A DNA stretch of 64,000 nucleotides, taken from positions 60,609,919 to 60,673,918 of the forward strand of contig CM055099.1 of the NCBI GenBank assembly GCA_029204225.1, written 5' to 3'. Under the pieces are notes generated by a model that was not told where the DNA came from, did no database searches, and saw only the letters and a program-made list of their open reading frames with translations. Below are positions 10,448 to 46,638 of the stretch, piece after piece. How positions within the stretch are numbered: position 1 is the first letter of the stretch; the number at the start of each line of letters is the position of its first letter. The stretch is from Diphasiastrum complanatum. Its lineage: Eukaryota > Streptophyta > Lycopodiopsida > Lycopodiales > Lycopodiaceae. The translations under genes were made by a program, and so were the position numbers.

Positions 10448-10462
10448 TGGTATCAGTAGGGC
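10448..10462 (+). other. Putative primer-binding site of the host copia element
   Basis: TGGTATCAGTAGGGC resembles the initiator-Met tRNA complement TGGTATCAGAGC with a few differences. It lies about 0.8 kb before the gag start, a plausible leader length for a copia element. The leader at 10463-11237 has no recognised coding. Confidence 0.35.
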
Positions 10463-11237: not shown

Positions 11238-12110
11238 ATGGCAAACATGGGAGAGTCCATTTTGAGTGAAAGTAGCAAATTGGACGGGATTTCCAACTAT
11301 GCAGTGTGGAAATTCAAAATGAAAAACGTATTGATGGAGAAAGACGTGTGGGAAGTTGTTGCAGGTGATGAGAGAAGGTCGTCAAATGAAGCGGATATCA
11401 AAGTGTTCGACAAAAAGATGAGGAAAGCTTTGACCTTCATTAACTTGTCAGTGAAGGATCCCATCATTACCCACATTTGTGATGCTGTTACACCCAGACA
11501 GACATGGGATGTGCTAAAGGAGCAGTTCGAGATGTCAAATCTGTCTAGAATCATGTTTCTGAAGTCAAAGCTGAATAGTTCCCGAATGGAACAAGGAGAG
11601 CACATTCAGACGTACATGACCAGAATCAAGACAATGAGGTATGAACTACATTCTATTGGTGAGCGCATACGTGATGTGGAGTTGGTGCACAATGCATTAT
11701 GCGGCATTGCAGAACCCTATCAAATGTTTGTGAGCGGAATAGCATCAAGAGAACGATTGCCAACCTTTGACGAGCTCACAAGAATCTTGATGCAAGAAGA
11801 GCAACGACGAGAAATGGTGAAAGCTAGACGTCAAAATACTGACGATCAAGCACTTGCGACATGCCAAAAACAAGGCAAGGGCAAGGGCAAGAAGAAGTCT
11901 AAACAACAATTTTCCAAGACTCAAGAGGATGAGGGATCTTCCAGTAAGACCAAGAAGAAAGGCAAGTGCTTCCATTGTGGTAAAAAGGGCCATTGGAAGA
12001 TTGAATGTCGCAAATTCCTGGCGGAACAAGGCAAGGGGAAACCAAAGCAAGCAGGTAACTTTGTCGATGAGGGTGAGATTGAAGACTCTAGCATTTTTAT
12101 TTCTGCATAG
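11238..12110 (+). CDS. gag: Ty1/copia Gag (290 aa)
   Basis: This is the nucleocapsid protein of a copia retrotransposon. The N-terminal part (KLDGISNYAVWKFKMKNVL) and the middle part belong to the plant copia Gag family (UBN2-type). A zinc knuckle of form C-x2-C-x4-H-x4-C lies at residues 244-257 (C244, C247, H252, C257), preceded by a lysine-rich linker. The frame is intact and ends at a single TAG (12108-12110). Beyond the stop the same frame continues directly into the protease (D-S-G-A-T), which normally belongs to one uninterrupted copia polyprotein. The amber is thus either one disabling mutation or, less likely, a readthrough site. Confidence 0.85.
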   Translation: MANMGESILSESSKLDGISNYAVWKFKMKNVLMEKDVWEVVAGDERRSSNEADIKVFDKKMRKALTFINLSVKDPIITHICDAVTPRQTWDVLKEQFEMSNLSRIMFLKSKLNSSRMEQGEHIQTYMTRIKTMRYELHSIGERIRDVELVHNALCGIAEPYQMFVSGIASRERLPTFDELTRILMQEEQRREMVKARRQNTDDQALATCQKQGKGKGKKKSKQQFSKTQEDEGSSSKTKKKGKCFHCGKKGHWKIECRKFLAEQGKGKPKQAGNFVDEGEIEDSSIFISA

Positions 12111-14125
12111 TCATCTAATCAAGATGATCAAGCGTGGTATAGTGACTCGGGAGCCACAAGACACATGACATGTAACAAGAATTGGTTCAATAGCTTGAAA
12201 GTGTTGGATAATAGAACGTCCGTTTCACAAGCAAATGGCGATGTGTGCAAGATGAAGGGGATAGGCATTGTTTCAATCCAACTACCTGATGGAAAAAGCA
12301 GGATGATCAGGGACGTACTTTACGTACCAGGTTCAAAGAAAAATCTACTTTTTGTTGGAGTCATTACTGATCAAAAGTTGAAAGTAGAATTCGCCCATGA
12401 TCGTTGCTTTGTGAAAGATGTGAACCAGAAGTTCAAAGTTATTACGGATGGAGTAAGAGAGCCCAATACAAAATTGTAGAGGTTGAATGCTACAATAAAG
12501 GGGCAACATGGACTTGTATCATCCATTCTATCGCAAACTGAGCTGTGGCATAAGAGGCTTGGTCACTTGAACCTGGGAAGCCTCAGTTTGATGAGAAAAT
12601 TAGAGATGGTAACAGGATTGCCTACCATAGAAGATCACTTGAAATCAATGTGCGAATCTTTTGTATAAAGAAGTTCAATAAAGGGGGTGTTGCAAGAGCA
12701 AAGAACATCCTGGATTTAATCTACACAGATTTATGCGGGCCTATGAGGAACATGTCCTTAGGTAAAGCCTTCTATTTCATGACCTTTATTGATGATATGT
12801 CATGTAAGACGTGGATCTACTTCTTGAAGAAGAAATCAGATGCATTTGACAACTTCAAGAGCTTCAAAGATCAAACAAGTAGGAAGATCAAAGACCTAAG
12901 ATCAGATTGTGGAGGTGAGTACAAGTATAATGACTTCAATGATTTTTGTGATCAATGTGGGATTAAAAGACAATTTAAGCAAGCTCATAATCCTGCTCTC
13001 AATGGTCTAGTTGAGCACAAGAATCGTACGATTGTGAAAAGTGTCAGATCGATGCTAGCTGAGATGAAACTACCAAAAGATTTTTGGTCAGAAGCATGCA
13101 GTATGGCAGTCTATCTTCAAAATAGAAGTCCTACCATTTTCATACCAAAGATAACACCTGAGGAAGCATTCATGAAGAAGAAGGAAAAGGTGAACCACTT
13201 GCAAATCTTTGGATGTAAGGCCTTTGTACACGTTCCTAAGGAAGAGAGACGTAAACTTGATATAAAAGCTATCAAGTGCATATTCCTAGGATATGATGAT
13301 CGTGTGAAAGGCTATAGATGTTTATCCAGTGTAAAACAAAATCCATGTAAGTCATGATGTTATCTTTGATGAATCCAATATGTATGAAGACGAGGATGCT
13401 AAGAAGATAGATACATCCAGTGAGAAAGATGGTATAGTGAGGATACCATTTGATGCTGATCCATTCATTGACCTTCCAAGTGATAAAAAAGATGATACAT
13501 CTCAAGATACTACTACTCAACCTCAAGAGACAGGTTGGAGAGGTAGGGACAAACCTTTTGGTGCAAGAAGGATTGAAGTTGCAGGTGACAAACGCAAAGA
13601 GAAGGATGTACCGTGGGATACATTTTCACCAAGAAGCCGATCACCTAACATGAAGCTCCCTAAGTGGTTTGAGAGATTGTTGGAGAGCCACGACATGGAT
13701 GACTTTCCAGGATCATCTAGCCAGGGAGAGCTACGAAGATCAACAAGAGAGAAGACAACCTGAAAGGTATGAAGCAAATTATACTCTCATATCTAGCATT
13801 ATTGAAAGCAAAGAACCTTCGACTTATGGTGAAGTGAAGGATGATGACATTTGGGTCAAGGCCATGGGAGAGGAGATGGAGTCAATTGCTAAGCATAACA
13901 CATGGGACTTAGCAGAACTACCAGTTGGCAAGAAACCCATTGGTTGCAAATGGGTATATAGAACTAAGTACCATGTAGATGGAAGTATAGCAAAGCATAA
14001 GGCAAGATTGGTGATCAAAGGGTATGCACAAAGTAAAGGCATTGACTATGAGGAGACCTTTGCGCTAGTATGTAAGTGGAATACTCCACGTCTACTTGTT
14101 GCTTTAGCTTCACATTTTGGTTGGC
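12111..14125 (+). pseudogene. Ty1/copia pol, part 1: protease, integrase and first part of RT
   Basis: Blocks appear in copia order. The aspartic protease has D-S-G-A-T-R-H-M near 12150. The integrase zinc-finger region has LWHKRLGHLN at about 12540. The integrase core has TDLCGPM, then LRSDCGGEY, and NGLVEHKNRT for its acidic triad (12720-13030). Next is the FLGYDDRVKGYR block. A linker leads to the RT start (KWVYRTKYHVDGSIAKHKARLV, 13940-14005, written here only as a landmark). Breaks include a TAG at 12478-12480 and frameshifts near 12650, 13330 and 13760. The sequence stops inside the RT at 14125, exactly where the TR-GAG element is inserted, and resumes at 19380. Confidence 0.85.
14121..14125 (+). 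repeat. Target-site duplication, left (TTGGC)
   Basis: TTGGC immediately precedes the 5' LTR and is repeated at 19380-19384 immediately after the 3' LTR. Removing one copy plus the element restores an open copia RT reading frame, which confirms the junctions. Confidence 0.95.
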
Positions 14126-15045
14126 TGTTGTAAAGCTGACTTGGGTGCACCCAGCGTGCCCTGTAAGACTCAAAGGGGTGACACTCCCTAAGGTCCCAGA
14201 GCAAGTTAGAATGTCAAGGACTGAGCCTCCGACCTGTGGTGAGCCAGTCAAGTAGTCACAAAGTCATGAGCTAGCTCTGGAGCTCGAGTCATGGCCTAGT
14301 CAGGAAAGCAGGTTGATTCGGCCGCCGGGACGGCTCCCGGGACCCATGTCCGGGAGCCAGACTGATTCTGCCAGGCTTGCCAGGCTTAATCAGCAAAATA
14401 AAAACTAAGTCCTAAAAAGCGTGCTTTACCAGAAAGCACTATGTTTCAAACCAGAGGGGGTGCGCCGAATCACAGCAGAACTATAGGGGGAGTCCGGCAG
14501 ACAGAAACTTGGGCGGCTCAACCAGCGCCAGGAATCCAGTCGCCAGGTCTCAGCTCCCTCTACCAGCACGAGCCAGGCACAATGCCCAGCACGTGTTGGT
14601 GGCCCCGAGACCGGTCAGTCTATGTATGAATGTAACCTCTTCCAAATCTAATAAAGTTGATCCTTGGGGATGATTACCATTTCGGTTTCGCCTCCGGGAC
14701 TGGTCCAAGTGGAAGGACCCTTACTACAACCTTTTTGCGTCGCTGGCGCCTAAGGGTCCCTGTCATCGACATGGGGCTTGCCGCTATGCCAATTGGTCAG
14801 TTTGGCGACCACTATGCCTTGGGTTTCATGTGTGGCTTGTCTTTGCCTTTGGTTACCTTTTGGGGACGGATTCTGAGTTGGCTTTCGGGTTGGTTGGGAT
14901 TCCAGTTTTCTTAAGTCTGAATGGTTAAGCTTGTTACGATTCTGAGTTGGCTTTTACGTAAGTGCGAGATGGATGAATGTTAGACTTAAGCGCGTGTTGG
15001 GGAAACCGCTCAAGTCCCAGCGCCCTTTGAGGCGCCGGCGCAACA
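14126..15045 (+). repeat. 5' LTR of TR-GAG copy 1
   Basis: It starts TGTTGTAAAGCTGACTTGGG and ends GGCGCCGGCGCAACA. A perfect dyad (GGCTCCCGG at 14332-14340, CCGGGAGCC at 14350-14358) forms a 9-bp stem with a 9-base loop. An AATAAA-type polyadenylation signal lies at about 14649. Short ORFs inside the LTR are identical in all four LTR copies of the window; they are probably not translated. Confidence 0.95.
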
Positions 15046-15047
15046 TG

Positions 15048-15060
15048 TGGTATCAGAGCC
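15048..15060 (+). other. Primer-binding site of TR-GAG copy 1
   Basis: TGGTATCAGAGCC, two bases after the LTR, is complementary to the 3' end of initiator-Met tRNA, the standard primer of plant LTR retrotransposons. Confidence 0.9.
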
Positions 15061-15136
15061 GACTAGCCGGTCAGCTACGCAAGTCTCACAGGGATGGCCA
15101 CGTTTTTGGGATTTGTCAGGACAACCGTTGCGCAAG

Positions 15137-15522
15137 GTGCTGCCCACAGTGTAAGCACGGGTGCGTCCACGGTCGGGGTGGTCGGCAGAACGGGGGACTT
15201 GATGAGTCAAAGTGCTGCCCTCGAGGTGTAAGCACGGTCAGTTCTCGCGGTTCGGGCCTGGCGCTGTCTGCACGTAGGACGGATGAGGCAAAGTGCTGCC
15301 TAGGTAGGTGAAAGCACGGTCTGTACCTTGTGGGGTGCGGGGCGACATATTCGAACTGTACGGGTTAACCATTGATACAGAGATGCTGCTCGAATTCGGG
15401 TGTAAAGCACGGGTGGTTAGCTGCCGGTGCGGGATAGCTGCCGATCGTTTAGCTATAAGGGCTATCGACCAAAAAGTGGTGGGGCGTGACTGAGGCAATG
15501 TGCTGCTTAATGGTGAAAGCAC
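15137..15522 (+). repeat. Five-fold repeated hairpin in the TR-GAG leader
   Basis: Five units of form GTGCTGC ... (G)(T/A)AAGCACGG occur at 15137-15158, 15212-15235, 15293-15317, 15384-15409 and 15500-15522. In each unit GTGCT (TGCT in the fourth) can pair with the downstream AGCAC. Spacing from one unit to the next is 75 to 116 bases. They lie between the primer-binding site and the Gag start, where dimerisation and packaging signals of retroelement RNA usually reside. A packaging or structural role is inference only. Confidence 0.7.
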
Positions 15523-15878
15523 GGATGGTTGGATGGATGTTTCCCCGTGGGCTAATTCTGTGATAGATTTGTGTGGGCGCGGCTAGGCAAAGGTCCTACG
15601 TCCGGTCTCAGGGGGGGTTTGTGGCTTGAGAGGGATCCTCTATGTTTGCTTTGGTTGGTATGTTCCGTTTGTCGTGTGCTTGCTTGGACACAAATGACCT
15701 GGTTCCTACTTGGCTCTCAGGTGATGTGGGCGTGCTAAGTTTGAGGAAGGGATATTTTCATTGAAGCTGATTTAATAAAGAAGAAAAGAGAGCTGTGGGG
15801 CCCGGCTGACAGAAGGGAGAGCTTCAAATATAAAAAGGATTGAGGCGATAATCTGTTGGAAGTACACCTCTGACTATA

Positions 15879-18092
15879 ATGGAGGACCATCTTGAAGAGT
15901 TACGAGCACTGACGGACGGAGAAGAGCTGACTCGAGAATACAGCTCTCGCATGCATCGAGATGGCACCAGGTCCAAGTCGAGAAAGAAAGAGCGTATGCA
16001 CTCCACAGTGGCGCCCCTCCATGAAGAGATGGGTGGCCCTTCTGAACCTACACCAAGAGATGAACCCTTGCCAGAGGCACAACAGGACCTCTTTGAAGTG
16101 AAGATGCGGCAATACTTATCAAGCGCAATGACGGCTATGCTTAGCGAGGTGAAGAAGGATAGAGAAACCGAAAGGAAAGAATGGCAAACATCCTTGCGAG
16201 CCATGAATCTTACCCAAATTAACCTTGCTAGAGAAATGAGAGACGGGCTAACACAGCTCGAAGCCAGGTTTGAAGAGTTGGAAGCAACTAGGGAGAATGC
16301 AGTGGCGCCTCCTCCACAGATACCAAGAGAACCACGAGCGCGAACCACGGAGGGCCCAAGAAAGACTGCCAAAGTGAAAGCACCACCTACTTTCAAAGGA
16401 GAGCGTGATATTCGAGTTGTGGAAGATTGGTTGTTTCACATGGACCATTACTTCCGTCTAATGAACACTCCTGAGGAAGAAAGAACTGACTTGGCATTAG
16501 CATATTTTGAGGGCTACACTACAAATTGGTACCGGATGGCAGGAATGCATTTTCAAACATGGGACGCATTCAAAGCCGCGTTACGAGAGGAGTTCATACC
16601 GAAGGATTCACACATGAGATTGAGGACAGAATTATCGGGGCTCAAACAGAAAGGGTCATTGCGAGAGTACCTCAATAGATTCAGACAGAGTGTATGGGTT
16701 ATTGAAGATATGTCCGAGGCGGACAAAACTCATTACCTATTGTCTGGAATGCAATCCTGGACCCGACGTGCGATAGACAGCTACATGCCCCATGATTTCA
16801 ATTCAACTATTCGAGCGGCTGAAATGGTTTGTGATTATGAGAGCACATTGGCACCAGCTGCTCCCGCAACCTCAACAAGAGTATTTAGTGGATCCAGACC
16901 GAGTCCGAGCTTCTTTTCAAGAGGGGACTCAGCTCCAAATGGCAACCAAGCCTCGAGTAGCGTGAATAAATTCCCAACAAAAACAGGGTTTGGCAACCAA
17001 GGCAACAATGGAGGGAACATGTTCCAGAGAAGAAACAATGTTGGATCTTCGACTAGTCACAGCAACAGCTCACCAACAGTGGGCAGTTCCATGCGTTGCT
17101 TCAACTGTCATCAGCAAGGTCACTCTTGGAGATCATGCCCCAAACCATTGAATAAGCAAATCATGGCTGCCATTGAAGGATTTGATAGGATGGAGAGAGA
17201 GGCATTTGATCAAGAAGATGGTGAACAAGATGATGAAGAGGACCCAGAAACGGATTTGACGGAGTCTGACCTGAATGCCTTGCAACAGATAGGGGCACTT
17301 GCGGCTTATCGTGAACATCTTATGGCGACTCCTGCGAGAGGATCCAAGTTATTGTACCTGAAAGGCTGTATTCAAGGCAGGATCATTTACTTCATGGTAG
17401 ACCTGGGGGCGTCTCATAACTACTTGTCAGAAAAACTGACAGGAGAATTGGACATCCAATGTGAAGAAAATGTGACTCCTATTTGTGTGGAGACCGCGAA
17501 AGGTACAATGACCACTTGTAGATTGGCAACCAACTTACCAATCTCTCTGGGAGCCTGGAAGAATCGACTAACGTTCACAATCTTGAAGATGGATGCCTTC
17601 GACGCTATTTTGGGATTAAGTTGGTTTAACGAACATGTGGTGGCCTTCTTGGCAAAAGGGGTTAACCTTGTGTTATTATATAATGGCAGGAGACCTTGTG
17701 TCGTCAGAGCTGTGCCAGGGGACCAACTAGAAAAGAACGACACAAATGAACCTGAGCCAACCATTCCTCCCAATCTCATTCACCTATTTAACGAAGGACA
17801 ACCAACAGTGACAGACCAGCTGGCACGGGAACAAATGGAGCCAAAATTGCCTATAGTCTCTACACCAAAGGTGAATTCAAGTGCCGATGCAGAGCTCAAG
17901 GAGCTCACCTTGTGTGACCAAGCGAAAACTCATCTTCTTAATGAAAGACATCCAACAGTGACAAACCAGTTGACGCGAGGTCAAATGGAGCCAACATTGC
18001 CTGCAGTTTCTACGTCAAAGGTGAATCTAAGTGCCGATGCAGAGCTCAAGGAGCTCAACCTGGACGACCAAACGAAATATCTAAAGTCCTAG
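15879..18092 (+). CDS. Gag-protease polyprotein of TR-GAG copy 1 (737 aa)
   Basis: The N-terminus is charged (residues 1-150, heptad-like and glutamate-rich, possible coiled coil). The central Retrotrans_gag domain (about 165-335) has the landmarks TFKGERDIRVVEDWLFHMDHY and LREYLNRFR. A C-x2-C-x4-H-x4-C zinc knuckle lies at residues 407-420. The aspartic-protease domain starts at about residue 495 with D508-L-G-A-S-H-N, followed by the usual DAILGLSWF at about 575. The catalytic motif of the family is D-S/T-G, so leucine at position 509 is abnormal. The C-terminus has two copies of a roughly 50-residue unit (about 635-685 and 686-735). The frame ends without RT. The ATG at 15879 is the first in frame and lies 834 bases after the 5' LTR. 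Confidence 0.95.
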   Translation: MEDHLEELRALTDGEELTREYSSRMHRDGTRSKSRKKERMHSTVAPLHEEMGGPSEPTPRDEPLPEAQQDLFEVKMRQYLSSAMTAMLSEVKKDRETERKEWQTSLRAMNLTQINLAREMRDGLTQLEARFEELEATRENAVAPPPQIPREPRARTTEGPRKTAKVKAPPTFKGERDIRVVEDWLFHMDHYFRLMNTPEEERTDLALAYFEGYTTNWYRMAGMHFQTWDAFKAALREEFIPKDSHMRLRTELSGLKQKGSLREYLNRFRQSVWVIEDMSEADKTHYLLSGMQSWTRRAIDSYMPHDFNSTIRAAEMVCDYESTLAPAAPATSTRVFSGSRPSPSFFSRGDSAPNGNQASSSVNKFPTKTGFGNQGNNGGNMFQRRNNVGSSTSHSNSSPTVGSSMRCFNCHQQGHSWRSCPKPLNKQIMAAIEGFDRMEREAFDQEDGEQDDEEDPETDLTESDLNALQQIGALAAYREHLMATPARGSKLLYLKGCIQGRIIYFMVDLGASHNYLSEKLTGELDIQCEENVTPICVETAKGTMTTCRLATNLPISLGAWKNRLTFTILKMDAFDAILGLSWFNEHVVAFLAKGVNLVLLYNGRRPCVVRAVPGDQLEKNDTNEPEPTIPPNLIHLFNEGQPTVTDQLAREQMEPKLPIVSTPKVNSSADAELKELTLCDQAKTHLLNERHPTVTNQLTRGQMEPTLPAVSTSKVNLSADAELKELNLDDQTKYLKS

Positions 18093-18329
18093 GGGACTCA
18101 TCCAGATGTGCGACCACAACGACATATCTGAGGCTTAAGGGAGCCGTGAGTACCTTTTTCTTTCATGCTAATAAAGTAAGCCGCATTTCTCATTGAGGAG
18201 TGAGCTTCAGTTTGATGTCTAAGTGCAGCAGCTTCACACAGGTTTTACGTAAGTGAACTAGATCCACACTTTTCCTGTGCTGGGTGTAAAACACAATATC
18301 ATTACTCTGCTTTACAGTTGGTTTTCTTT

Positions 18330-18397
18330 GGCCGGTGAATCAAGCCCGTGCCCTTGTATATGTGACTAAAGTCTGGCCGGTGAATTAAGCCCGTGCC
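18330..18397 (+). repeat. Direct repeat upstream of the 3' LTR
   Basis: A 23-base unit beginning GGCCGGTGAAT and ending AAGCCCGTGCC occurs at 18330-18352 and 18375-18397, with a single difference. It lies in the 367-base non-coding stretch between the Gag-protease stop and the 3' LTR, where an autonomous element would have pol. Confidence 0.8.
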
Positions 18398-18450
18398 ATG
18401 AGTCTTAGGTTCTAGTTTGGCCCTGATGAGGACATCAGCTTTCTCAAACG

Positions 18451-18459
18451 AGGGGAGGA
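18451..18459 (+). other. Polypurine tract of TR-GAG copy 1
   Basis: AGGGGAGGA directly abuts the TGTTG start of the 3' LTR, the expected position and composition for the plus-strand primer. Confidence 0.9.
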
Positions 18460-19379
18460 TGTTGTAAAGCTGACTTGGGTGCACCCAGCGTGCCCTGTAA
18501 GACTCAAAGGGGTGACACTCCCTAAGGTCCCAGAGCAAGTTAGAATGTCAAGGACTGAGCCTCCGACCTGTGGTGAGCCAGTCAAGTAGTCACAAAGTCA
18601 TGAGCTAGCTCTGGAGCTCGAGTCATGGCCTAGTCAGGAAAGCAGGTTGATTCGGCCGCCGGGACGGCTCCCGGGACCCATGTCCGGGAGCCAGACTGAT
18701 TCTGCCAGGCTTGCCAGGCTTAATCAGCAAAATAAAAACTAAGTCCTAAAAAGCGTGCTTTACCAGAAAGCACTATGTTTCAAACCAGAGGGGGTGCGCC
18801 GAATCACAGCAGAACTATAGGGGGAGTCCGGCAGACAGAAACTTGGGCGGCTCAACCAGCGCCAGGAATCCAGTCGCCAGGTCTCAGCTCCCTCTACCAG
18901 CACGAGCCAGGCACAATGCCCAGCACGTGTTGGTGGCCCCGAGACCGGTCAGTCTATGTATGAATGTAACCTCTTCCAAATCTAATAAAGTTGATCCTTG
19001 GGGATGATTACCATTTCGGTTTCGCCTCCGGGACTGGTCCAAGTGGAAGGACCCTTACTACAACCTTTTTGCGTCGCTGGCGCCTAAGGGTCCCTGTCAT
19101 CGACATGGGGCTTGCCGCTATGCCAATTGGTCAGTTTGGCGACCACTATGCCTTGGGTTTCATGTGTGGCTTGTCTTTGCCTTTGGTTACCTTTTGGGGA
19201 CGGATTCTGAGTTGGCTTTCGGGTTGGTTGGGATTCCAGTTTTCTTAAGTCTGAATGGTTAAGCTTGTTACGATTCTGAGTTGGCTTTTACGTAAGTGCG
19301 AGATGGATGAATGTTAGACTTAAGCGCGTGTTGGGGAAACCGCTCAAGTCCCAGCGCCCTTTGAGGCGCCGGCGCAACA
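18460..19379 (+). repeat. 3' LTR of TR-GAG copy 1
   Basis: This is 920 bp, the same length as the 5' LTR, with no differences where I compared them. Dyad, internal ORFs and ends are identical. It is followed by the TTGGC duplication at 19380-19384. Confidence 0.95.
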
Positions 19380-29838: not shown

Positions 29839-30236
29839 GAAATCTGATGCTTTTGCCAAGTTTAGAGAGTTCAAGGCTCCAGTTGAAAAACAAACAAATT
29901 GTTATATTAAGACCCTCAGATCAGATGGTGGCGGTGAGTATTTTTCAACAGAGTTTATAAATTTTTGCAAGGATCAGGGGATCAAGAGACAAACCACTAC
30001 ACCCTATTCACCACAGCAGAACGGAGTTGCAGAACAGAAAAATAGATCCGTTGTGGAGATGGCTAGGGCAATGCTTAAGAGCAAGGGTTTGCCAAATACT
30101 TTCTGGGCAGAAGCATGCAACACAGCTACTCATTTCTTGAATCGGTGTCCTACGAAGTGCGTGGCGGGTAAGACACCTTACGAAGCTTTTATTGGAAAGA
30201 AACCTAATGTTTCTCATTTACGAGTATTTGGTTGTA
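29839..30236 (+). pseudogene. Ty1/copia integrase fragment, opposite orientation
   Basis: The plus strand reads the second half of a copia integrase: KKSDAFAKFREFK, LRSDGGGEYFSTEF, QQNGVAEQKNRS, FWAEACNTA and HLRVFGC. It starts inside the core domain and stops at FGC, where it changes abruptly into the transposase-like gene. It is head-to-head with the RNase H fragment. Confidence 0.85.
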
Positions 30237-31725
30237 ATGAGAATGTCAATAACAAGTTGATAGTTGTTCTCAAGTTAGATGAGTTTGAAATTATAAAAGG
30301 ACAAAAAATGGAAAGAGTCAGTCTCATGATCATGAATGAACCACTTTCAAATTCAGAAAACTCAGAAGGCCTCAATTTCAGTGTTCAATCAGAAAATGAT
30401 ATCTGATGGTTGGCAGCATTTCAGGTGTAGCAGTTCCTTCACATAGTAAATAGGGATAATCATTTGAATATGGATTTCATATCTAAAATCTTTTCTGTGT
30501 TAATATTATGAGGCTAATCACATTTTTGTATTCTCTTATAGGTGCTGAAAGAAGACCATGACATTCTCTCATGGATATTTAATAGAACATCATATCCTGC
30601 CACCATAAAAAATCATATGGAGGGAGTTCCACTCAATATTCCTGGAATTGGCACTTTCAACATTCAATGGCATTTAGCAAGAGATCTGAAGACATTAAAA
30701 TGTATGTTCAATGTATCTCATGGCGCTAACTCTAAACACCCTTGTTTGTATTGCATGAAAACAACAAAAGACATGCCAAGGAGTACAGGAATATCAAGAG
30801 ATCGAGAAGATTCTAACTGGAAACCTGTACTACCGATTCCTTTACGAAATGTTCATATCTGTACATTGCATGCGGAGGTGCGTATTATAGAAAAAATAAT
30901 ATAACTTCACATCTTGTTTGCATGGAATTCCGTGCCACAGGCCTCTACGAAAGAAGCTATTTCCAGATTAGAGGATGTGTTGTCCAAAGCAGGCTTACAT
31001 AAAGGCCACGTTAAAATTAAAAAAGATGACAAGCTATCAAGTAAAATAGGAAATATTCCATGCAAGTCGAGCATTGGTGGATCTAAAGCTTGAAGATTTT
31101 TATCAAATTATTTTGGCAAACAATCTAAGGTTCAATACACGGTTTGGAAAGAAATTATTGCAGCAACTCAAGATTTCAAAGAAGAAGGTTCTACTCGTAT
31201 ACACAAAGTAGAAGTTTGGAAAAAGTTAGACAACAATTTTGAAATACTTGAAAAAAGATAAATTTTAAAATACTGATGTACAAATGATACAGAAAACAAC
31301 CAATGAATTTGTGGATGTAATTCAAATGACATGGGGTGTTGATCATATAACACATTATATGGTAAGATTTTGATTTTACACTACGATAGACAAATATGTG
31401 CAATTAAATTAGATACTTTTGGTACTGATTTAGATTATGCTTTTATGACATGCAGCACATATTACGACATCATTCGACATTCTTTGCAAGAGATAGTGGA
31501 AGTCTTAGCATACGATCATCGCAAGGAATGGAAAAATCTCATTGGCAAGCAAGAGCAGCATTTCATAAAAGTACACAACATGGCGGGACTAGCACCAAAA
31601 ATAACTATATACTGCAACTTTTCCAATGGTTTTACAGAAGAATCCAAATTCGTCATAATACAAAATTGATGAATTATAAAAAATTTCAAAAAGCATGCAA
31701 ATTTATACAAGCCAGTAGGCTATAG
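30237..31725 (+). pseudogene. Transposase-like gene with introns, 5' truncated
   Basis: Visible exons: about 30237-30409 (boundaries uncertain), 30542-30877, 30941-31361 and 31456-31725. The introns 30878-30940 and 31362-31455 are GT-AG and phase 0. Exon 2 carries WHLARDLKTLKCM and then CLYC (an acidic residue followed 20-odd residues later by C-x2-C). The last exon carries QGMEKSHWQARAAFHKS. The order D, C-x2-C, then Q-G-x-E-K resembles RNase H-fold transposases with a zinc-binding insertion (TNP2/KDZ-like, and proteins I recall from metazoan and fungal repeats). Lesions are a TGA at 31091-31093 and a frameshift near 31260. The 5' end is cut by the copia fragment. The family assignment is inference. 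Confidence 0.5.
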
Positions 31726-31799
31726 ACACACAATAAAATTTTGCATATTAGATGAAAATATTTACAAATTACAATTCAGCAGTATCTAATCTGCTTTCG

Positions 31800-33175
31800 A
31801 TATTTTTTCCAATGAAAGTTGCAACTTGAATCATGCAACAATTTTTTTCTTTCGTATGGATCCAATAGCTCATAGTTTTCATACTTACTTAGATCAACAT
31901 AAGCAGCATACACTGAGATGATCTGAGCATGGAATTCACTGGTCCATATCCTAAAATTTTAACCGCAATAGTTTTTTTTACAAAAATTATTTCATGCACC
32001 TTATTATGTCCTCCAAGAAAATGAGACAGTGCCTTAATCGCCATAATCATAGTTTCACCATGTTGATGAAACTTTGAATGGGCAACACTTATCTCATTAT
32101 TCTTGAAGGACTTCAGATAGTGCCCCAATGCATGATCTCTTGAAAATTCTCCAACAGAAGATCTCTGCCCTCCTCGACGAATTGCGAAATCATCGAGAAA
32201 AATTGTTTCCTAAAATGATAAAAAACAAAGTAAACTCCAGTATATAAACTGACGTTGGTGAATAGACAGTTGGCTGTGGAGAACCAAGTTGACTTTGGAT
32301 TCTAAGAAACTCCTCCTCAGAAGGTAGATCATCTTCTTTCTTGCGCATTTCCTCCACAGCCATTTTCAAGCAATCTTTCCCTGAATAAAACTTATCATTA
32401 TATACATCGTCAACACCAGGGAGAAGATCATTAACATCAAAATCAATTATATTCAAAAATTCATCTAGATCTTTGCCAAAATGCAAAGACTCTCAGCTTC
32501 AGTGAAGCCAAAAAGATCCGATATATCCGATATTGTCAAAAAGGTTATTATCTATATTATAAGTAGGCAAGGTGATCAAAGATTTATCAGAAGGAGAAAG
32601 AGTAGTGGGGGTTCTAGGGCCTACAAATGTAGCCGTATTTCGAGTAGGATCAAAATTAGAACAATCATCTAAACTAACACTCGTATCAATAAAAAAAGTA
32701 TCTATATCTACAATCTTTGACTTTTCAGACTTTGTACCACTAGAAGAAGCTGCTTCAAAAGTGGAGGGAACAGCCTCCGAATCGTCAGAAATATTTAGCA
32801 AAAGAAAAAAACAAAAACAGACTGAAAATCAACAAATCTACATTTCTTATTATGAATTGGGCACTCATCTACAGACTTGAAATCATTATGTAACTTGGTA
32901 AACATTCTGTCAATCTTAGCTTGATAGATATGCTTGTCGAGTGCCACCAGGTCCTGATAATGAATCATGTCCTTATTCTGAGATCTGAATAAGAGAGTAC
33001 TGAGCAGGGACTTATATCTGAGATATATCTCAGAAAATGCCTCCACACCAGGGCCCTTAGGTTTAGAAGGTAGAATAAAAAGAAAATGAGAAAAAAGAGA
33101 TTTGAAATACTCCAACCTATCAATAATACCAAATTCATGAAAAAAAGAAAGCAAACTAAATTCAAAACTAGACAT
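31800..33175 (-). pseudogene. Unidentified multi-exon gene of the 30-36 kb cluster
   Basis: On the minus strand an ATG at 33175 (an alternative at 33190) opens about 118 codons ending in a C-P-I-H-N-K-K-C motif. A second block follows in another frame (SDDSEAVPSTFEAASS, serine- and aspartate-rich, to about 32500). A third block (FGKDLDEFLNIIDFDVNDLL, 32485-32253) is very acidic. A GT-AG intron (32252-32210) leads to an exon at 32209-32000, then an intron (31999-31951) and a short last exon. Frame changes near 32820 and 32490 and phase conflicts at the last introns suggest light decay. No known family is recognised. It converges with the transposase-like gene and diverges from the H3-Ulp gene. 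Confidence 0.4.
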
Positions 33176-34079
33176 ATTAAACAAAAACAACAGAACTAAT
33201 ATTTTAAATATCGCTCTCAGGCATAAAACCCAGATCAGGCAAGCACATCAAGGCAACGTGCGCTCGAGAGAGATATTTCAAGTTGGAGTATCGGATCCGA
33301 GCGCAAGAACAAAGAGCAAAAAAAAAAAGAGATGCAAAGCACGCTTGAATGCGATATCGGATGATGCAGTATCAGATCCAGACGCAAAATAGTCAATGAA
33401 GGATAATGAGAGCAAGCGGCGCGCTTGAAATCGATATCCGGCAAAGTAGTTGTAAATTTGCGTGAAAATCCGAGCCGAAGAAGACCTATTTATAAAAAAA
33501 AAAACTCGCACGTGTGGATTAGTAGCGACGGAACACTTGTTGACTTGTGATTGGTCAAAATAATTGCGCCGTACCTAGAATGATTGATCTGACATCTGTC
33601 ACGTGCGAGAATGACACGCGTCGAGAGCGCATTCGCGCACGTGTCTCAGCCCACGTGGCCTAATAATAGGGTCATCATTGTTAGTATGGACAGTCCACAT
33701 GGGCTGATAATATATCGACACATGTCCTCGTCGTCTTTTCACACGTGCAAAAATTTCGTATACATAAGTCCTCAGAAATTTCATCTTTTTTTGCAAAATT
33801 TTCGCTTTTAGCTCCCAATATCGCTCTCAAGCACGCTCTTTCACCGTTCTAGATTTTGCCCTCTCACAGTGCGCTCGAGTCCGATACCGCTGGTATTCCA
33901 ATATCGCTTTTGAGCGCGCATCTCGTCCATAAAATAATCTCTGTAGATCTTGCGCTCAAAACTGATATTAAGTTCTGGTATCGATCTCTAGCGCCCTTTC
34001 ATTGCAAAATTTTTTGTTTTCATCCACTTTTCTTTTGTTCGATTTTTTTTTTTTTGTTTATTTTTTTCCTCTGAGTATG
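33176..34079. promoter_or_regulatory. Bidirectional promoter with CACGTG boxes and a repeated motif
   Basis: This lies between the divergent ATGs at 33175 (-) and 34080 (+). Five perfect CACGTG boxes start at 33509, 33600, 33638, 33652 and 33742. Outward TATA-like boxes are TATAAATAGG on the minus strand (33494-33485) and TATACATA on the plus strand (33759-33766). On both outer sides, in the presumed 5' leaders, lie about nine copies of a composite motif pairing GCGCT(C/T) with GATAT/GATAC in either orientation: 33260, 33289, 33341, 33421, 33817, 33871, 33900, 33952 and 33977. A G-box-driven divergent promoter and a protein-binding role for the repeats are inference. Confidence 0.6.
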
Positions 34080-36265
34080 ATGGCTAGGACCAAATCCATT
34101 GCCCATGCCATAACCACTGTACAGCCATCCCATTCACGTGTTCCTCTTGGTACTAGCCGTAGGCATGGCAGGAAGCAGGTCTGGCTGAGGGAGATAAGAA
34201 AACTCCAGAGATCAACTGAATTGTTGATCCCTAGAGCTCGAGCTCCTTTCAGCCGATCTATACGGAATGTCACTCTGTCACTTGGGCTGGATGTTCGTTT
34301 TGCCGTGACAGCCATGCAGGGTGCTGCAAAAGATTTTTTATCCTAGTTTTTTGAGGATTCGTGTCTTTTGGCAGTGCATGGTAAGCGTGTCACCATCATG
34401 CCGAAGGATTTTGTCATTCTCAAAAGGCTTCGGGACAGATATTTTGGTCTGCATGTTGATAATGCCAGCACCTCCAGAGACCTGCCTCTGGATAGAACCG
34501 ATTTGCCTACTACCTCTAGGAGGAAGAGAAAGCAGCCTGTCCCCAAGAAGGCTGGATCTCGTAGGCCAGCTGCTTCCCTTCCTCCTAGAGTTATCCCGGC
34601 CAAGAGATCTCGTGTCTTCTTGAGCTCTGAGTCAGATGCTGGAGAATCTGACTCAAATCGAGAATCTTCACCCCTTCCTCCATCTGTTATTCGTCCAGCT
34701 CCTCAGCATGTTTCATCACCAAAAGTGTTGATTACCCAAGAGGAGCTAGACAAAATAAGAGAGAAATATGTAAATATTGTTTCCACTTCTGTTTCCACTC
34801 CTGTACATAATCTTTTTGTGAGAATTCCATACGATCCAGCCCAAGTTTTTTTTTATTCTGACCATTATAATCCATACGAGGCCTACCTAGCTAACAAAAT
34901 TGATTTTCTTGGCAACGTTTTTGATTTTTTTTCTTCCACATACACGTAGAAGCTTTAGATTAGGTCTCAAATTTTGTGCCAAGCTAAAAGATAAGACTTC
35001 AAAAGTTTCAGATGCAATAGTAGAGGCCGGAGTTTCTTTTTTGCAGAATAGTATTAGTTTCGATTCCCATGGTACAATTTTTATAGTTAGTCCATTTTTC
35101 ATGGAAGCGGTAAAGGCGAAAGAAGCCAATTTTGAGAAGGCTGTCTATTTTATCGAGTGTAGTCCTATGGTGAAATTCTATTTGATTCCATATGAAAATA
35201 AGTAAGGATTGCTCTTTTGTTTTTGTTGCTTTAATCTGGATTGTTGCATGCCTCATTGCTTTAATAAGAACGGAATTTTTTCATAAATATGAATTTATCG
35301 ATATTTGTATCTTGGTTGTTGTAGTCGGCATTGGAGCCTAAACATTCTTTTTGTAAAGATAAATAAGGAGGGAGTATCAAATTTTCTAGGTGTAAAATTA
35401 AACTCAACTGCAAATACACATAGAGAATTTGAATCTCTACTTCATGATGCCGTTCGAGAAATACCGACAACGGCAACTTCAATTGGAGATATAACCATTA
35501 AATCTCTCAAAGTATATTCAATTTATTTCTGATATGCATGTATTCAATTTTTAATCCAAATGTATTGTCATAGCATAAATAAAATTTCTATCATAATATT
35601 ACTAATTTTCGTTCTATATATGCAGTGTGTACAACAAAATGACGCTTTTAGTTGTGCATGGTTCGTCTTGTACAATACGAAACTATTTTTTGAATGGTAT
35701 AATTACAAACGGATGTTGATATTGAAAAGGTAATATTCTATTCATTTGTAGTTCATTTCATTCTGATTCATATTTTATTACTATCATTGTTTGTAATTTG
35801 CTGATTCTCGTGTTTTGTGATGACAGTTCATTCTTGAGACGTATACTCCTGATGATGTATATAGATTTCAGCAAGAGTTGATCAGAACCTTTGCCCAGTA
35901 CGGTGTAAGTGTTGCACCTGCAATCGAGGGCCCTCAAAGGAAGCTGCTCCTGCCTTAACAGCCTTTCAGGTTGTTCAGGATGTAGATCTTATTTTATATG
36001 ATCAAAAAGGAATAAAAGTCCTTCCTAATACAGAGGAAGGCAATTTTGTAGCAGCTATTCCTCTTGCCTTAAATGGCATTGAGGCCCTTCTCGAAACAGA
36101 GGAGGGCAAGATTATAGAAGGAGTTGTTGCCTTATCAGTTCCTAATACTGATATAGACAATATAGAAAAATTGATTGAATAGAGGATGGGACCGCCACCA
36201 ATTTTGGTGGGGAATACTGTTGGAGGGTTTGCCGATATCAAGGCAATTAGATTATTCATTTATCA
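34080..36265 (+). pseudogene. Histone H3-like domain fused to an Ulp1/C48-type cysteine peptidase
   Basis: Residues 1-123 resemble histone H3. The tail begins M-A-R-T-K-S (canonical A-R-T-K-Q). The alpha-N helix is LREIRKLQRSTELLI (36-50). The second and third helices include FFEDSCLLAVHGKRVTIMPKD (residues 90-110). A TAG (34344-34346) splits helix 2. Then come a basic, nuclear-signal-like linker (SRRKRKQPVPKK) and an acidic serine stretch. A one-base slip in a T8 run near 34930 shifts frame into a C48-like domain. This has FYLIPYENN, then HW (His codon 35329-35331), and QQNDAFSCAWFVLY (Cys codon 35653-35655). Introns 35202-35324 (phase 2) and 35512-35625 (phase 0) are GT-AG and keep frame. 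Exons continue to about 36265, with small frame slips and a TAG at about 36180. Confidence 0.65.
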
Positions 36266-41379: not shown

Positions 41380-41384
41380 GGTAC
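41380..41384 (+). repeat. Target-site duplication of TR-GAG copy 2, left (GGTAC)
   Basis: GGTAC precedes the 5' LTR at 41385 and is repeated at 46639-46643 after the 3' LTR. It differs from the duplication of copy 1, so copy 2 is an independent insertion and not a segmental duplication. Confidence 0.95.
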
Positions 41385-42304
41385 TGTTGTAAAGCTGACT
41401 TGGGTGCACCCAGCGTGCCCTGTAAGACTCAAAGGGGTGACACTCCCTAAGGTCCCAGAGCAAGTTAGAATGTCAAGGACTGAGCCTCCGACCTGTGGTG
41501 AGCCAGTCAAGTAGTCACAAAGTCATGAGCTAGCTCTGGAGCTCGAGTCATGGCCTAGTCAGGAAAGCAGGTTGATTCGGCCGCCGGGACGGCTCCCGGG
41601 ACCCATGTCCGGGAGCCAGACTGATTCTGCCAGGCTTGCCAGGCTTAATCAGCAAAATAAAAACTAAGTCCTAAAAAGCGTGCTTTACCAGAAAGCACTA
41701 TGTTTCAAACCAGAGGGGGTGCGCCGAATCACAGCAGAACTATAGGGGGAGTCCGGCAGACAGAAACTTGGGCGGCTCAACCAGCGCCAGGAATCCAGTC
41801 GCCAGGTCTCAGCTCCCTCTACCAGCACGAGCCAGGCACAATGCCCAGCACGTGTTGGTGGCCCCGAGACCGGTCAGTCTATGTATGAATGTAACCTCTT
41901 CCAAATCTAATAAAGTTGATCCTTGGGGATGATTACCATTTCGGTTTCGCCTCCGGGACTGGTCCAAGTGGAAGGACCCTTACTACAACCTTTTTGCGTC
42001 GCTGGCGCCTAAGGGTCCCTGTCATCGACATGGGGCTTGCCGCTATGCCAATTGGTCAGTTTGGCGACCACTATGCCTTGGGTTTCATGTGTGGCTTGTC
42101 TTTGCCTTTGGTTACCTTTTGGGGACGGATTCTGAGTTGGCTTTCGGGTTGGTTGGGATTCCAGTTTTCTTAAGTCTGAATGGTTAAGCTTGTTACGATT
42201 CTGAGTTGGCTTTTACGTAAGTGCGAGATGGATGAATGTTAGACTTAAGCGCGTGTTGGGGAAACCGCTCAAGTCCCAGCGCCCTTTGAGGCGCCGGCGC
42301 AACA
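41385..42304 (+). repeat. 5' LTR of TR-GAG copy 2
   Basis: 920 bp, TGTTG...CAACA. The perfect 9-bp dyad lies at 41591-41617. Confidence 0.95.
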
Positions 42305-42395
42305 TGTGGTATCAGAGCCGACTAGCCGGTCAGCTACGCAAGTCTCACAGGGATGGCCACGTTTTTGGGATTTGTCAGGACAACCGTTGCGCAAG

Positions 42396-42781
42396 GTGCT
42401 GCCCACAGTGTAAGCACGGGTGCGTCCACGGTCGGGGTGGTCGGCAGAACGGGGGACTTGATGAGTCAAAGTGCTGCCCTCGAGGTGTAAGCACGGTCAG
42501 TTCTCGCGGTTCGGGCCTGGCGCTGTCTGCACGTAGGACGGATGAGGCAAAGTGCTGCCTAGGTAGGTGAAAGCACGGTCTGTACCTTGTGGGGTGCGGG
42601 GCGACATATTCGAACTGTACGGGTTAACCATTGATACAGAGATGCTGCTCGAATTCGGGTGTAAAGCACGGGTGGTTAGCTGCCGGTGCGGGATAGCTGC
42701 CGATCGTTTAGCTATAAGGGCTATCGACCAAAAAGTGGTGGGGCGTGACTGAGGCAATGTGCTGCTTAATGGTGAAAGCAC
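42396..42781 (+). repeat. Five-fold repeated hairpin, TR-GAG copy 2
   Basis: The same five GTGCT...AGCAC units as in copy 1, at equivalent positions in the leader. Confidence 0.7.
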
Positions 42782-43137
42782 GGATGGTTGGATGGATGTT
42801 TCCCCGTGGGCTAATTCTGTGATAGATTTGTGTGGGCGCGGCTAGGCAAAGGTCCTACGTCCGGTCTCAGGGGGGGTTTGTGGCTTGAGAGGGATCCTCT
42901 ATGTTTGCTTTGGTTGGTATGTTCCGTTTGTCGTGTGCTTGCTTGGACACAAATGACCTGGTTCCTACTTGGCTCTCAGGTGATGTGGGCGTGCTAAGTT
43001 TGAGGAAGGGATATTTTCATTGAAGCTGATTTAATAAAGAAGAAAAGAGAGCTGTGGGGCCCGGCTGACAGAAGGGAGAGCTTCAAATATAAAAAGGATT
43101 GAGGCGATAATCTGTTGGAAGTACACCTCTGACTATA

Positions 43138-45351
43138 ATGGAGGACCATCTTGAAGAGTTACGAGCACTGACGGACGGAGAAGAGCTGACTCGAGAATAC
43201 AGCTCTCGCATGCATCGAGATGGCACCAGGTCCAAGTCGAGAAAGAAAGAGCGTATGCACTCCACAGTGGCGCCCCTCCATGAAGAGATGGGTGGCCCTT
43301 CTGAACCTACACCAAGAGATGAACCCTTGCCAGAGGCACAACAGGACCTCTTTGAAGTGAAGATGCGGCAATACTTATCAAGCGCAATGACGGCTATGCT
43401 TAGCGAGGTGAAGAAGGATAGAGAAACCGAAAGGAAAGAATGGCAAACATCCTTGCGAGCCATGAATCTTACCCAAATTAACCTTGCTAGAGAAATGAGA
43501 GACGGGCTAACACAGCTCGAAGCCAGGTTTGAAGAGTTGGAAGCAACTAGGGAGAATGCAGTGGCGCCTCCTCCACAGATACCAAGAGAACCACGAGCGC
43601 GAACCACGGAGGGCCCAAGAAAGACTGCCAAAGTGAAAGCACCACCTACTTTCAAAGGAGAGCGTGATATTCGAGTTGTGGAAGATTGGTTGTTTCACAT
43701 GGACCATTACTTCCGTCTAATGAACACTCCTGAGGAAGAAAGAACTGACTTGGCATTAGCATATTTTGAGGGCTACACTACAAATTGGTACCGGATGGCA
43801 GGAATGCATTTTCAAACATGGGACGCATTCAAAGCCGCGTTACGAGAGGAGTTCATACCGAAGGATTCACACATGAGATTGAGGACAGAATTATCGGGGC
43901 TCAAACAGAAAGGGTCATTGCGAGAGTACCTCAATAGATTCAGACAGAGTGTATGGGTTATTGAAGATATGTCCGAGGCGGACAAAACTCATTACCTATT
44001 GTCTGGAATGCAATCCTGGACCCGACGTGCGATAGACAGCTACATGCCCCATGATTTCAATTCAACTATTCGAGCGGCTGAAATGGTTTGTGATTATGAG
44101 AGCACATTGGCACCAGCTGCTCCCGCAACCTCAACAAGAGTATTTAGTGGATCCAGACCGAGTCCGAGCTTCTTTTCAAGAGGGGACTCAGCTCCAAATG
44201 GCAACCAAGCCTCGAGTAGCGTGAATAAATTCCCAACAAAAACAGGGTTTGGCAACCAAGGCAACAATGGAGGGAACATGTTCCAGAGAAGAAACAATGT
44301 TGGATCTTCGACTAGTCACAGCAACAGCTCACCAACAGTGGGCAGTTCCATGCGTTGCTTCAACTGTCATCAGCAAGGTCACTCTTGGAGATCATGCCCC
44401 AAACCATTGAATAAGCAAATCATGGCTGCCATTGAAGGATTTGATAGGATGGAGAGAGAGGCATTTGATCAAGAAGATGGTGAACAAGATGATGAAGAGG
44501 ACCCAGAAACGGATTTGACGGAGTCTGACCTGAATGCCTTGCAACAGATAGGGGCACTTGCGGCTTATCGTGAACATCTTATGGCGACTCCTGCGAGAGG
44601 ATCCAAGTTATTGTACCTGAAAGGCTGTATTCAAGGCAGGATCATTTACTTCATGGTAGACCTGGGGGCGTCTCATAACTACTTGTCAGAAAAACTGACA
44701 GGAGAATTGGACATCCAATGTGAAGAAAATGTGACTCCTATTTGTGTGGAGACCGCGAAAGGTACAATGACCACTTGTAGATTGGCAACCAACTTACCAA
44801 TCTCTCTGGGAGCCTGGAAGAATCGACTAACGTTCACAATCTTGAAGATGGATGCCTTCGACGCTATTTTGGGATTAAGTTGGTTTAACGAACATGTGGT
44901 GGCCTTCTTGGCAAAAGGGGTTAACCTTGTGTTATTATATAATGGCAGGAGACCTTGTGTCGTCAGAGCTGTGCCAGGGGACCAACTAGAAAAGAACGAC
45001 ACAAATGAACCTGAGCCAACCATTCCTCCCAATCTCATTCACCTATTTAACGAAGGACAACCAACAGTGACAGACCAGCTGGCACGGGAACAAATGGAGC
45101 CAAAATTGCCTATAGTCTCTACACCAAAGGTGAATTCAAGTGCCGATGCAGAGCTCAAGGAGCTCACCTTGTGTGACCAAGCGAAAACTCATCTTCTTAA
45201 TGAAAGACATCCAACAGTGACAAACCAGTTGACGCGAGGTCAAATGGAGCCAACATTGCCTGCAGTTTCTACGTCAAAGGTGAATCTAAGTGCCGATGCA
45301 GAGCTCAAGGAGCTCAACCTGGACGACCAAACGAAATATCTAAAGTCCTAG
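43138..45351 (+). CDS. Gag-protease polyprotein of TR-GAG copy 2 (737 aa)
   Basis: Identical to the copy 1 product in every residue. It has the Retrotrans_gag domain, the C-x2-C-x4-H-x4-C knuckle (residues 407-420), the aspartic protease with the unusual D508-L509-G510 motif, and the two roughly 50-residue C-terminal repeats. The identical ORF in an independent insertion shows that the D-L-G variant was present in a copy that transposed. Confidence 0.95.
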   Translation: MEDHLEELRALTDGEELTREYSSRMHRDGTRSKSRKKERMHSTVAPLHEEMGGPSEPTPRDEPLPEAQQDLFEVKMRQYLSSAMTAMLSEVKKDRETERKEWQTSLRAMNLTQINLAREMRDGLTQLEARFEELEATRENAVAPPPQIPREPRARTTEGPRKTAKVKAPPTFKGERDIRVVEDWLFHMDHYFRLMNTPEEERTDLALAYFEGYTTNWYRMAGMHFQTWDAFKAALREEFIPKDSHMRLRTELSGLKQKGSLREYLNRFRQSVWVIEDMSEADKTHYLLSGMQSWTRRAIDSYMPHDFNSTIRAAEMVCDYESTLAPAAPATSTRVFSGSRPSPSFFSRGDSAPNGNQASSSVNKFPTKTGFGNQGNNGGNMFQRRNNVGSSTSHSNSSPTVGSSMRCFNCHQQGHSWRSCPKPLNKQIMAAIEGFDRMEREAFDQEDGEQDDEEDPETDLTESDLNALQQIGALAAYREHLMATPARGSKLLYLKGCIQGRIIYFMVDLGASHNYLSEKLTGELDIQCEENVTPICVETAKGTMTTCRLATNLPISLGAWKNRLTFTILKMDAFDAILGLSWFNEHVVAFLAKGVNLVLLYNGRRPCVVRAVPGDQLEKNDTNEPEPTIPPNLIHLFNEGQPTVTDQLAREQMEPKLPIVSTPKVNSSADAELKELTLCDQAKTHLLNERHPTVTNQLTRGQMEPTLPAVSTSKVNLSADAELKELNLDDQTKYLKS

Positions 45352-45718
45352 GGGACTCATCCAGATGTGCGACCACAACGACATATCTGAGGCTTAAGGG
45401 AGCCGTGAGTACCTTTTTCTTTCATGCTAATAAAGTAAGCCGCATTTCTCATTGAGGAGTGAGCTTCAGTTTGATGTCTAAGTGCAGCAGCTTCACACAG
45501 GTTTTACGTAAGTGAACTAGATCCACACTTTTCCTGTGCTGGGTGTAAAACACAATATCATTACTCTGCTTTACAGTTGGTTTTCTTTGGCCGGTGAATC
45601 AAGCCCGTGCCCTTGTATATGTGACTAAAGTCTGGCCGGTGAATTAAGCCCGTGCCATGAGTCTTAGGTTCTAGTTTGGCCCTGATGAGGACATCAGCTT
45701 TCTCAAACGAGGGGAGGA

Positions 45719-46638
45719 TGTTGTAAAGCTGACTTGGGTGCACCCAGCGTGCCCTGTAAGACTCAAAGGGGTGACACTCCCTAAGGTCCCAGAGCAAGTT
45801 AGAATGTCAAGGACTGAGCCTCCGACCTGTGGTGAGCCAGTCAAGTAGTCACAAAGTCATGAGCTAGCTCTGGAGCTCGAGTCATGGCCTAGTCAGGAAA
45901 GCAGGTTGATTCGGCCGCCGGGACGGCTCCCGGGACCCATGTCCGGGAGCCAGACTGATTCTGCCAGGCTTGCCAGGCTTAATCAGCAAAATAAAAACTA
46001 AGTCCTAAAAAGCGTGCTTTACCAGAAAGCACTATGTTTCAAACCAGAGGGGGTGCGCCGAATCACAGCAGAACTATAGGGGGAGTCCGGCAGACAGAAA
46101 CTTGGGCGGCTCAACCAGCGCCAGGAATCCAGTCGCCAGGTCTCAGCTCCCTCTACCAGCACGAGCCAGGCACAATGCCCAGCACGTGTTGGTGGCCCCG
46201 AGACCGGTCAGTCTATGTATGAATGTAACCTCTTCCAAATCTAATAAAGTTGATCCTTGGGGATGATTACCATTTCGGTTTCGCCTCCGGGACTGGTCCA
46301 AGTGGAAGGACCCTTACTACAACCTTTTTGCGTCGCTGGCGCCTAAGGGTCCCTGTCATCGACATGGGGCTTGCCGCTATGCCAATTGGTCAGTTTGGCG
46401 ACCACTATGCCTTGGGTTTCATGTGTGGCTTGTCTTTGCCTTTGGTTACCTTTTGGGGACGGATTCTGAGTTGGCTTTCGGGTTGGTTGGGATTCCAGTT
46501 TTCTTAAGTCTGAATGGTTAAGCTTGTTACGATTCTGAGTTGGCTTTTACGTAAGTGCGAGATGGATGAATGTTAGACTTAAGCGCGTGTTGGGGAAACC
46601 GCTCAAGTCCCAGCGCCCTTTGAGGCGCCGGCGCAACA
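45719..46638 (+). repeat. 3' LTR of TR-GAG copy 2
   Basis: 920 bp, followed directly by GGTAC (46639-46643). An ORF starting in this LTR (46566) and running into flanking DNA is an accident of the insertion. Confidence 0.95.

Follow-up and report, generated by a model that had tools for sequence, protein, structure and literature searches.

The question raised by positions 34080–36182 of the 64,000-nucleotide stretch of the Diphasiastrum complanatum genome analyzed here (contig CM055099.1; hereafter, the window) is whether a histone H3-like domain and a C48/Ulp1-type cysteine peptidase domain are encoded as one polypeptide within a transposon, and what such a protein might do for the element that carries it. 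The best explanation overall, to which we assign a probability of about 0.4, is that the element encodes a selfish fusion protein that loosens the element's own silencing.

Organization and copies of gene 3

The locus corresponds to gene 3, third in order within a high-copy repeated element, and is read from the plus strand. Exon 1 (34080–35201) encodes an H3-like tail (ARTK) and fold (34080–34445, end approximate), delimited by the Pfam Histone match, the alignment, and the AlphaFold model of copy L007, followed by a basic, Ser/Pro-rich linker recognized by eye (34446–34800, limits approximate) and the N-terminal part of the peptidase. The His-Trp block is encoded by exon 2 (35325–35511, with AG/GT borders) and the Q-Q-N-D-x-F-S-C block by exon 3 (35626–35729), and exon 4 (35827–36182) runs from its AG border along an open frame to the TAG stop codon at 36180. 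The window copy is decayed, with an in-frame TAG at 34344–34346, a frameshift near 34935, and a one-base loss in exon 3, which has 104 bases as compared with 105 in L007 and L035. The first-pass annotation had placed the gene at 34080–36265, which is right to about 85 bases, but the coding region stops at 36182, two bases before the repeat does at 36184; the one TAG and one slip that it had listed are both present, but the loss in exon 3 had gone unlisted, and in place of its two introns three are supported by GT–AG borders found at the same places in two families. The contig of the window copy (C8) carries a second, near-identical copy at a distance of about 155 kb.

The 1.74-Gb genome from which the window was taken was searched with both DNA and protein queries. 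The DNA of 34080–34700 gave 40 scored matches of 89–100% identity (1763 first-look candidates), and exon 1 of L007 (373 residues) gave 112 protein matches (10462 first-look candidates, 110 scored). Among these 112 matches, referred to as family a, 11 are stop-free and five are stop-free across residues 1–373, that is, over the full exon 1; these five full-length open copies are located on contigs C577, C18, C117, C10, and C4, those on C117 and C10 being near-identical to each other. The H3 part, the linker, and the start of the peptidase stand in a single open frame in L007, L032, L033, L034, and L035, and L035 is open through four exons, encoding 591 residues after splicing of three GT...AG introns. 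L054, which shares the layout of the window gene but has diverged from it, belongs to a sister family (family b), for which a search with L054 exon 1 (337 residues) gave 119 matches of 78–100% identity, 23 of them stop-free over the whole of residues 1–337. Spliced at GT–AG borders, L054 encodes a 491-residue protein that matches both Pfam Histone (87 bits; E = 1.5e-24) and Peptidase_C48 (36.1 bits; E = 7.9e-9) over their cut-offs; an NCBIfam scan of the same protein gave no match. The three introns are 97–123 bases long, all GT...AG, and agree in place and phase between L035 and L054. The H3-like domain, the basic linker, and the C48 peptidase domain are encoded in one reading frame of gene 3. 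The fusion that had been proposed from the window is established by L054, a natural copy from the sister family in which each of the two domains scores over its cut-off, and the paralogues read hold both parts in a single frame, not as separate genes.

The transposon that carries gene 3

The window contains an internal part (30236–36184) of a transposon copy that measures about 9–10 kb at full length, both ends being missing. The limits of this part come from a blastn comparison of the window with 10 other copies, for each of which 20 kb were used; C577 and C8b, being near-identical duplicates, were counted once. The homology among the ten copies extends beyond the window copy on both sides. 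The C577 element aligns with the window at 30236–32253 and 32254–36184, and by this comparison the terminal motifs of the element are absent from the window. Along the element come gene 1 (plus strand), gene 2 (minus strand), and the fusion gene 3 (plus strand), with a short frame on the minus strand close to the right end. A remnant of gene 1 was located on the plus strand at 30236–31771 (30236–30427, 30542–30787, 31019–31370, and 31343–31771) by tblastn with pieces of C577; by eye, it is a putative DDE transposase, with no transposase match in either Pfam or the PDB. Gene 2, on the minus strand at 31790–33247 (left limit approximate), was delimited by its open frames and gave no Pfam match at curated cut-offs in the pieces scanned.

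The ends of the element, CATTAGAGAAA...TTTCTCTAATG, form an imperfect inverted repeat of ~30 bp, as judged by eye. The CATTAGAGAAA inverted repeats enclose genes 1–3 in C577, where the ends are 9920 bp apart, and the same ends, with one mismatch, are ~9.0 kb apart in the copy at C8:27.85M. Searches with the two ends gave 40 scored matches each (1476 candidates for the left and 1526 for the right); the right end of the C9:15.8M copy is absent from the stretch examined. The proposal that the gene is transposon-encoded is supported by the terminal inverted repeats that surround it. Inverted repeats and multiple copies, as expected of a DNA transposon, are present, with gene 1 resembling a DDE transposase by eye only. 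VANDAL transposons lack terminal inverted repeats and make a target duplication of 9 bp. An assignment to VANDAL/KIU elements (MULEs) does not fit what was found, namely inverted repeats together with no target-site duplication at the full-length C577 and C8:27.85M copies, and no Pfam match to a MULE transposase or DUF1985 in the pieces scanned. The full-length copies given by L011 and L012 joined (4114–14033), L069, and L070 have good inverted repeats and are without target-site duplication.

On the left side of the element fragment, a reading frame assigned by eye to a copia integrase runs into position 30236, where a sharp junction leads from the integrase frame to gene 1; on the right side, the repeat ends at 36184, two bases past the stop codon of gene 3. 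These junctions look more like segment capture than a normal insertion. Elsewhere in the window, two copies of an LTR element (14125–19379 and 41384–46638) are 100% identical over 5255 bases, with LTRs of ~925 bases that are 99.8–100% alike. By eye, its 746-residue frame resembles a Gag-protease; none of the listed frames of ≥150 residues is a reverse transcriptase, and the element is a very young, apparently non-autonomous LTR retrotransposon. An open frame at 59856–60623 resembles, by eye, a trichome birefringence-like gene of the host plant.

Peptidase domain

Over the peptidase half, L054 and L035 share 41% identity, and both retain the His, Gln, and Cys residues and the intron positions. 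A joint profile of the two, compared with the PDB, gave Ulp1 (E = 0.0031), SENP8 (0.008 and 0.039), and SENP2 (0.062) as the four best matches. The C48/Ulp1 assignment first made on the window is upheld at the Pfam cut-off by L054, but family a stays under the cut-off of 20.7 bits (12.9 bits for L035 and 14.5 bits for the window piece that includes the Cys block); because of the 41% identity to family b and the joint profile, we regard the family a domain as homologous to C48 peptidases. As in Ulp1 and SENP8, the His, oxyanion Gln, and Cys blocks occur in gene 3 in the same order and spacing, with His found in 24 of the 27 aligned copies and the Cys, like the Gln six residues ahead of it, in 23. 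Gene 3 differs from these peptidases in being fused to H3 and in that the triad Asp is not clearly kept: the corresponding position is Lys by the SENP8 alignment and, by the Ulp1 alignment, Lys in L054 (with an Asp adjoining) and Asn in family a. In 24 of the 27 copies and in L054, the SENP8-aligned Lys is followed two residues later by an Asn, which may stand in for the triad Asp. Since that residue is not clearly kept, the peptidase activity may be lost or altered. A genome-wide search with Peptidase_C48 gave three matches (L029–L031), of which L029 is a stand-alone Ulp-type gene; the fusion gene may escape this search owing to its introns.

It is conceivable, if unlikely, that the peptidase serves transposition, in repair or in freeing the transposition complex of SUMO or ubiquitin, or that it cuts the H3 part from itself, with H3 as an anchor only. 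Such a role leaves unexplained the kept H3 fold, in which the equivalents of H113, R116, and D123 (canonical numbering) are retained. In its favor, Ulp1 and OTU domains recur in transposons and have been proposed to act in transposition, as described for Ginger1 (PMC2836005).

Histone H3-like domain

The H3 fold that had been recognized in the window holds at the profile level, the segment 34080–34343 matching Pfam Histone with 33.4 bits (E = 6e-8; cut-off, 26.4), and exon 1 of L007 with 83 bits (E = 2.7e-23); the window piece after the TAG, from 34347, gives 20.7 bits (E = 5e-4), under the cut-off. With L054 (87 bits) and L035 (69.1 bits), the open copies show the core histone fold (PF00125) of the H3 type, and a chance resemblance to H3 is ruled out by the E-value of 2.7e-23. 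The FEDxxLxxxHxKRxTxxPKD block, comprising α2, loop 2, and α3, is kept in the alignment. The AlphaFold model of L007 has helices at residues 30–45, 53–66, 75–104, and 110–126, with pLDDT values of 51–57 for αN and 73–82 for the three fold helices, and a structure search with this model found 202 PDB chains at E ≤ 0.001, the best 50 being nucleosome or histone structures. Because one of the 13 rows of the alignment used for AlphaFold was the host H3, the model is supporting and not independent of homology. Structure prediction, put forward at the outset as a check, returned an H3 fold for the H3 half of L007 but failed for exon 1 of family b, which was folded without an alignment (pLDDT 33, worthless).

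The position equivalent to K4 is Lys in 25 of the 27 copies, with one gap and one Glu, and that equivalent to K9 is Ala in all 27. The K9 position is occupied by Asp in L054 of family b, and by Pro in L061 and Leu in L067 of family c. A search of the genome with a canonical plant H3 sequence gave at least 154 matches (6060 candidates, 150 scored); among the matches listed are 13 near-canonical H3 genes (97–99% over residues 1–136) and some canonical-like H3 pieces (79–93%), most of the others being H3-like at 44–57%; it was this search that brought up L054. Families a, b, and c group together in a 13-row tree (94/94, slightly short of the tool's mark of 95), and family d makes up a separate group (98/97), with open forks between H3, CENH3, and d. 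A simple capture of CENH3 was considered, and the small tree gives it no support, with a, b, and c in their own clade. One protein search for the host CENH3 brought up canonical H3 and H3-like repeats first and did not find it.

It is quite unlikely that the H3 part is a targeting factor, which steers insertion to certain chromatin or lets the element ride on centromeres. The LLIP.A.F block of the H3 part also occurs in plant CENH3, and the window H3 piece compared with PDB sequences has human CENP-A as its best match (38.6 bits, versus 31.7 for the best plant H3). Against this, families a, b, and c cluster with none of the three CENH3/CENP-A rows in the small 13-row tree; loop 1 of family a has the canonical length, not the longer one of CENH3; and the copies are spread over many contigs.

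Several other H3-like repeats were observed. Family c (L061, L067, and L068) is a third H3-like family, in which the frame of L067 is uninterrupted, matches an H3 in size, and has, like CENH3, a Trp and a longer loop 1; in L061, the fold is followed by a basic stretch that resembles the fusion linker. In families d (L050, L051, L052, L053, L055, L058, and L062–L064) and d2 (L059, L060, and L065), the H3 fold is C-terminal, after a Pro-rich, basic region, and the short stretches examined show no peptidase; in L057 and L052 combined, an ARTKQTAR tail with Asp at K9 is located upstream in another frame.

Constraint on the encoded protein

Selection was assessed on 27 aligned family a copies, reduced to 25 by dropping the near-identical L034 and L006. 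The dN/dS ratios, computed pairwise with stop codons excluded and with frameshifted copies retained as a source of noise, are 0.44 for the H3 core, 0.59 for the tail, and 0.79 for the linker, the highest among the four exon 1 regions; those for the peptidase are 0.55 in exon 1, 0.83 in exon 2, and 0.52 in exon 3. Variants were then divided into shared and private ones. The ratio is lower for shared variants in the H3 core (0.44 versus 0.71), in the peptidase part of exon 1 (0.46 versus 0.88), and in exon 3 (0.18 versus 0.95), slightly lower in the tail (0.74 versus 0.80), and also lower in the linker, with an opposite trend in exon 2 (0.82 versus 0.73). With variants common by descent counted once each and the copies not being independent, Fisher tests of shared versus private variants gave p = 0.0028 for the H3 core and all peptidase exons together (exon 2 included), p = 0.0086 for the peptidase, and p = 0.26 for the linker; the test was not significant for the H3 core alone (p = 0.21). 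Between families a and b, the H3 core is 59–64% identical, with pN of 0.30–0.32 and pS of 0.84–0.87. Because this identity persists while silent sites are saturated, selection is considered to have kept the protein. These sequence comparisons support the view that the gene 3 protein has probably been under purifying selection on active copies as the families spread, with decay afterwards. The identity of the gene and the selection on it, taken together, we hold to be highly probable.

The same data bear on whether gene 3 is a passenger, that is, a captured H3 fragment joined by accident to an Ulp1 gene of the element and copied without function. Plant transposons are described as often capturing genes (PMC2528002), the hAT-borne H3 copies of Pseudocercospora fijiensis are reported as inactivated, with the exception of the original gene (PMC6710886), and most of the listed copies of gene 3 carry stops, with 11 of the 112 family a matches being free of them. 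Such an origin is nevertheless very unlikely, in view of stop-free frames in two families with saturated silent sites, the stronger constraint on shared than on private variants, and the retention of both domains and the introns. Two adjacent genes, or a sequencing or assembly artefact, suggested by the TAG and slips in the window copy, are a negligible alternative, ruled out at the DNA level by continuous open frames in many independent copies on many contigs and in two families.

Possible role in the element

Under the reading preferred here, the gene 3 product would be an accessory protein easing the silencing of its own element. Its H3 part, paired with H4, would be taken up into, or stay bound to, the nucleosomes that cover the element, and the peptidase attached to it would remove SUMO or a related modifier from the silencing proteins at that site. 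The H3 fold would be the chromatin-binding end of the protein, in a place analogous to the role of VANC/KIU. The silencing of plant transposons relies on the H3K9me mark. Because the K9 position is Ala, with the K4 position kept, the H3 part could not carry H3K9me. From this, a stricter form can be conceived, in which the element encodes a substitute H3 refusing the K9 mark together with a peptidase for SUMO-type modifiers, so that its own nucleosomes are made unsilenceable, but we consider this form doubtful. The absence of K9 may stem from a CENH3-type tail instead of selection, and a tail of several hundred residues could impede entry into nucleosomes.

The anti-silencing mechanism is proposed by likeness to VANC and KIU of VANDAL transposons and is tentative, at somewhat under even odds. 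VANC proteins are described as acting on motif arrays in the non-coding DNA of their own elements and undoing silencing (PMC5735166, PMC10398659), and KIU (Kaonashi) comprises VANC genes with an Ulp1 domain in some VANDAL elements, the function of the Ulp1 domain in transposons being stated there as unknown (PMC13317346). Like VANC and KIU of VANDAL and other MULEs, the gene 3 product would serve a plant DNA transposon in an accessory role, and KIU also has a C48/Ulp1 domain (PMC13317346, PMC2528002). In contrast to them, gene 3 has no DUF1985 or DUF287 among its Pfam matches up to E = 1 and carries the H3 fold in the N-terminal place; its element is bounded by terminal inverted repeats, and the pieces scanned gave no match to a MULE transposase in Pfam.

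The region between genes 2 and 3 (33200–34060) contains a cluster of TATCG and AGCGC motifs. TATCG/CGATA occurs 10 times in the window, compared with 2.2 expected, a number reached by none of 400 dinucleotide shuffles, and 11 times in C577; AGCGC/GCGCT occurs eight times in the window and 11 times in C577 (reached in 2 and 0 of 400 shuffles, respectively), all these numbers being too favorable because the motifs were picked after the sequence had been seen. The cluster recalls the motif arrays described for VANC (PMC5735166, PMC10398659).

Both halves of the fusion have precedents. An H3-like gene between terminal inverted repeats, multiplied with its element, is described in hAT transposons of the fungi Pyrenophora tritici-repentis (H3L, which has ESTs; PMC3538342) and P. 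fijiensis (PMC6710886). These differ from gene 3 in being fungal and in being described there as stand-alone genes and not as fused to a peptidase, and the captured copies in P. fijiensis are reported as inactivated. Ginger1 (PMC2836005) and CACTA-ULP (PMC2528002) are, like the present element, transposons with an Ulp1 peptidase domain; the Ulp1 domain of Ginger1 sits on the transposase and that of CACTA-ULP goes with Tnp2, and neither source uses the word histone in its main text. Transposon-borne H3 in fungi and transposon-borne Ulp1 in plants and animals are each known; among the matches listed by full-text searches of one open-access library, no H3–Ulp1 fusion was found.

If the stricter reading, that of a substitute H3 refusing the K9 mark, is true, at least two diverged fused families, together with more H3-like repeats, would make this a plant genome with repeated recruitment of H3 by transposons. 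The joining of H3 to Ulp1 would tie the peptidase to chromatin and let a change that a transposon makes to its own nucleosomes be tested directly, and the fusion would add a selfish origin of plant H3 variants.
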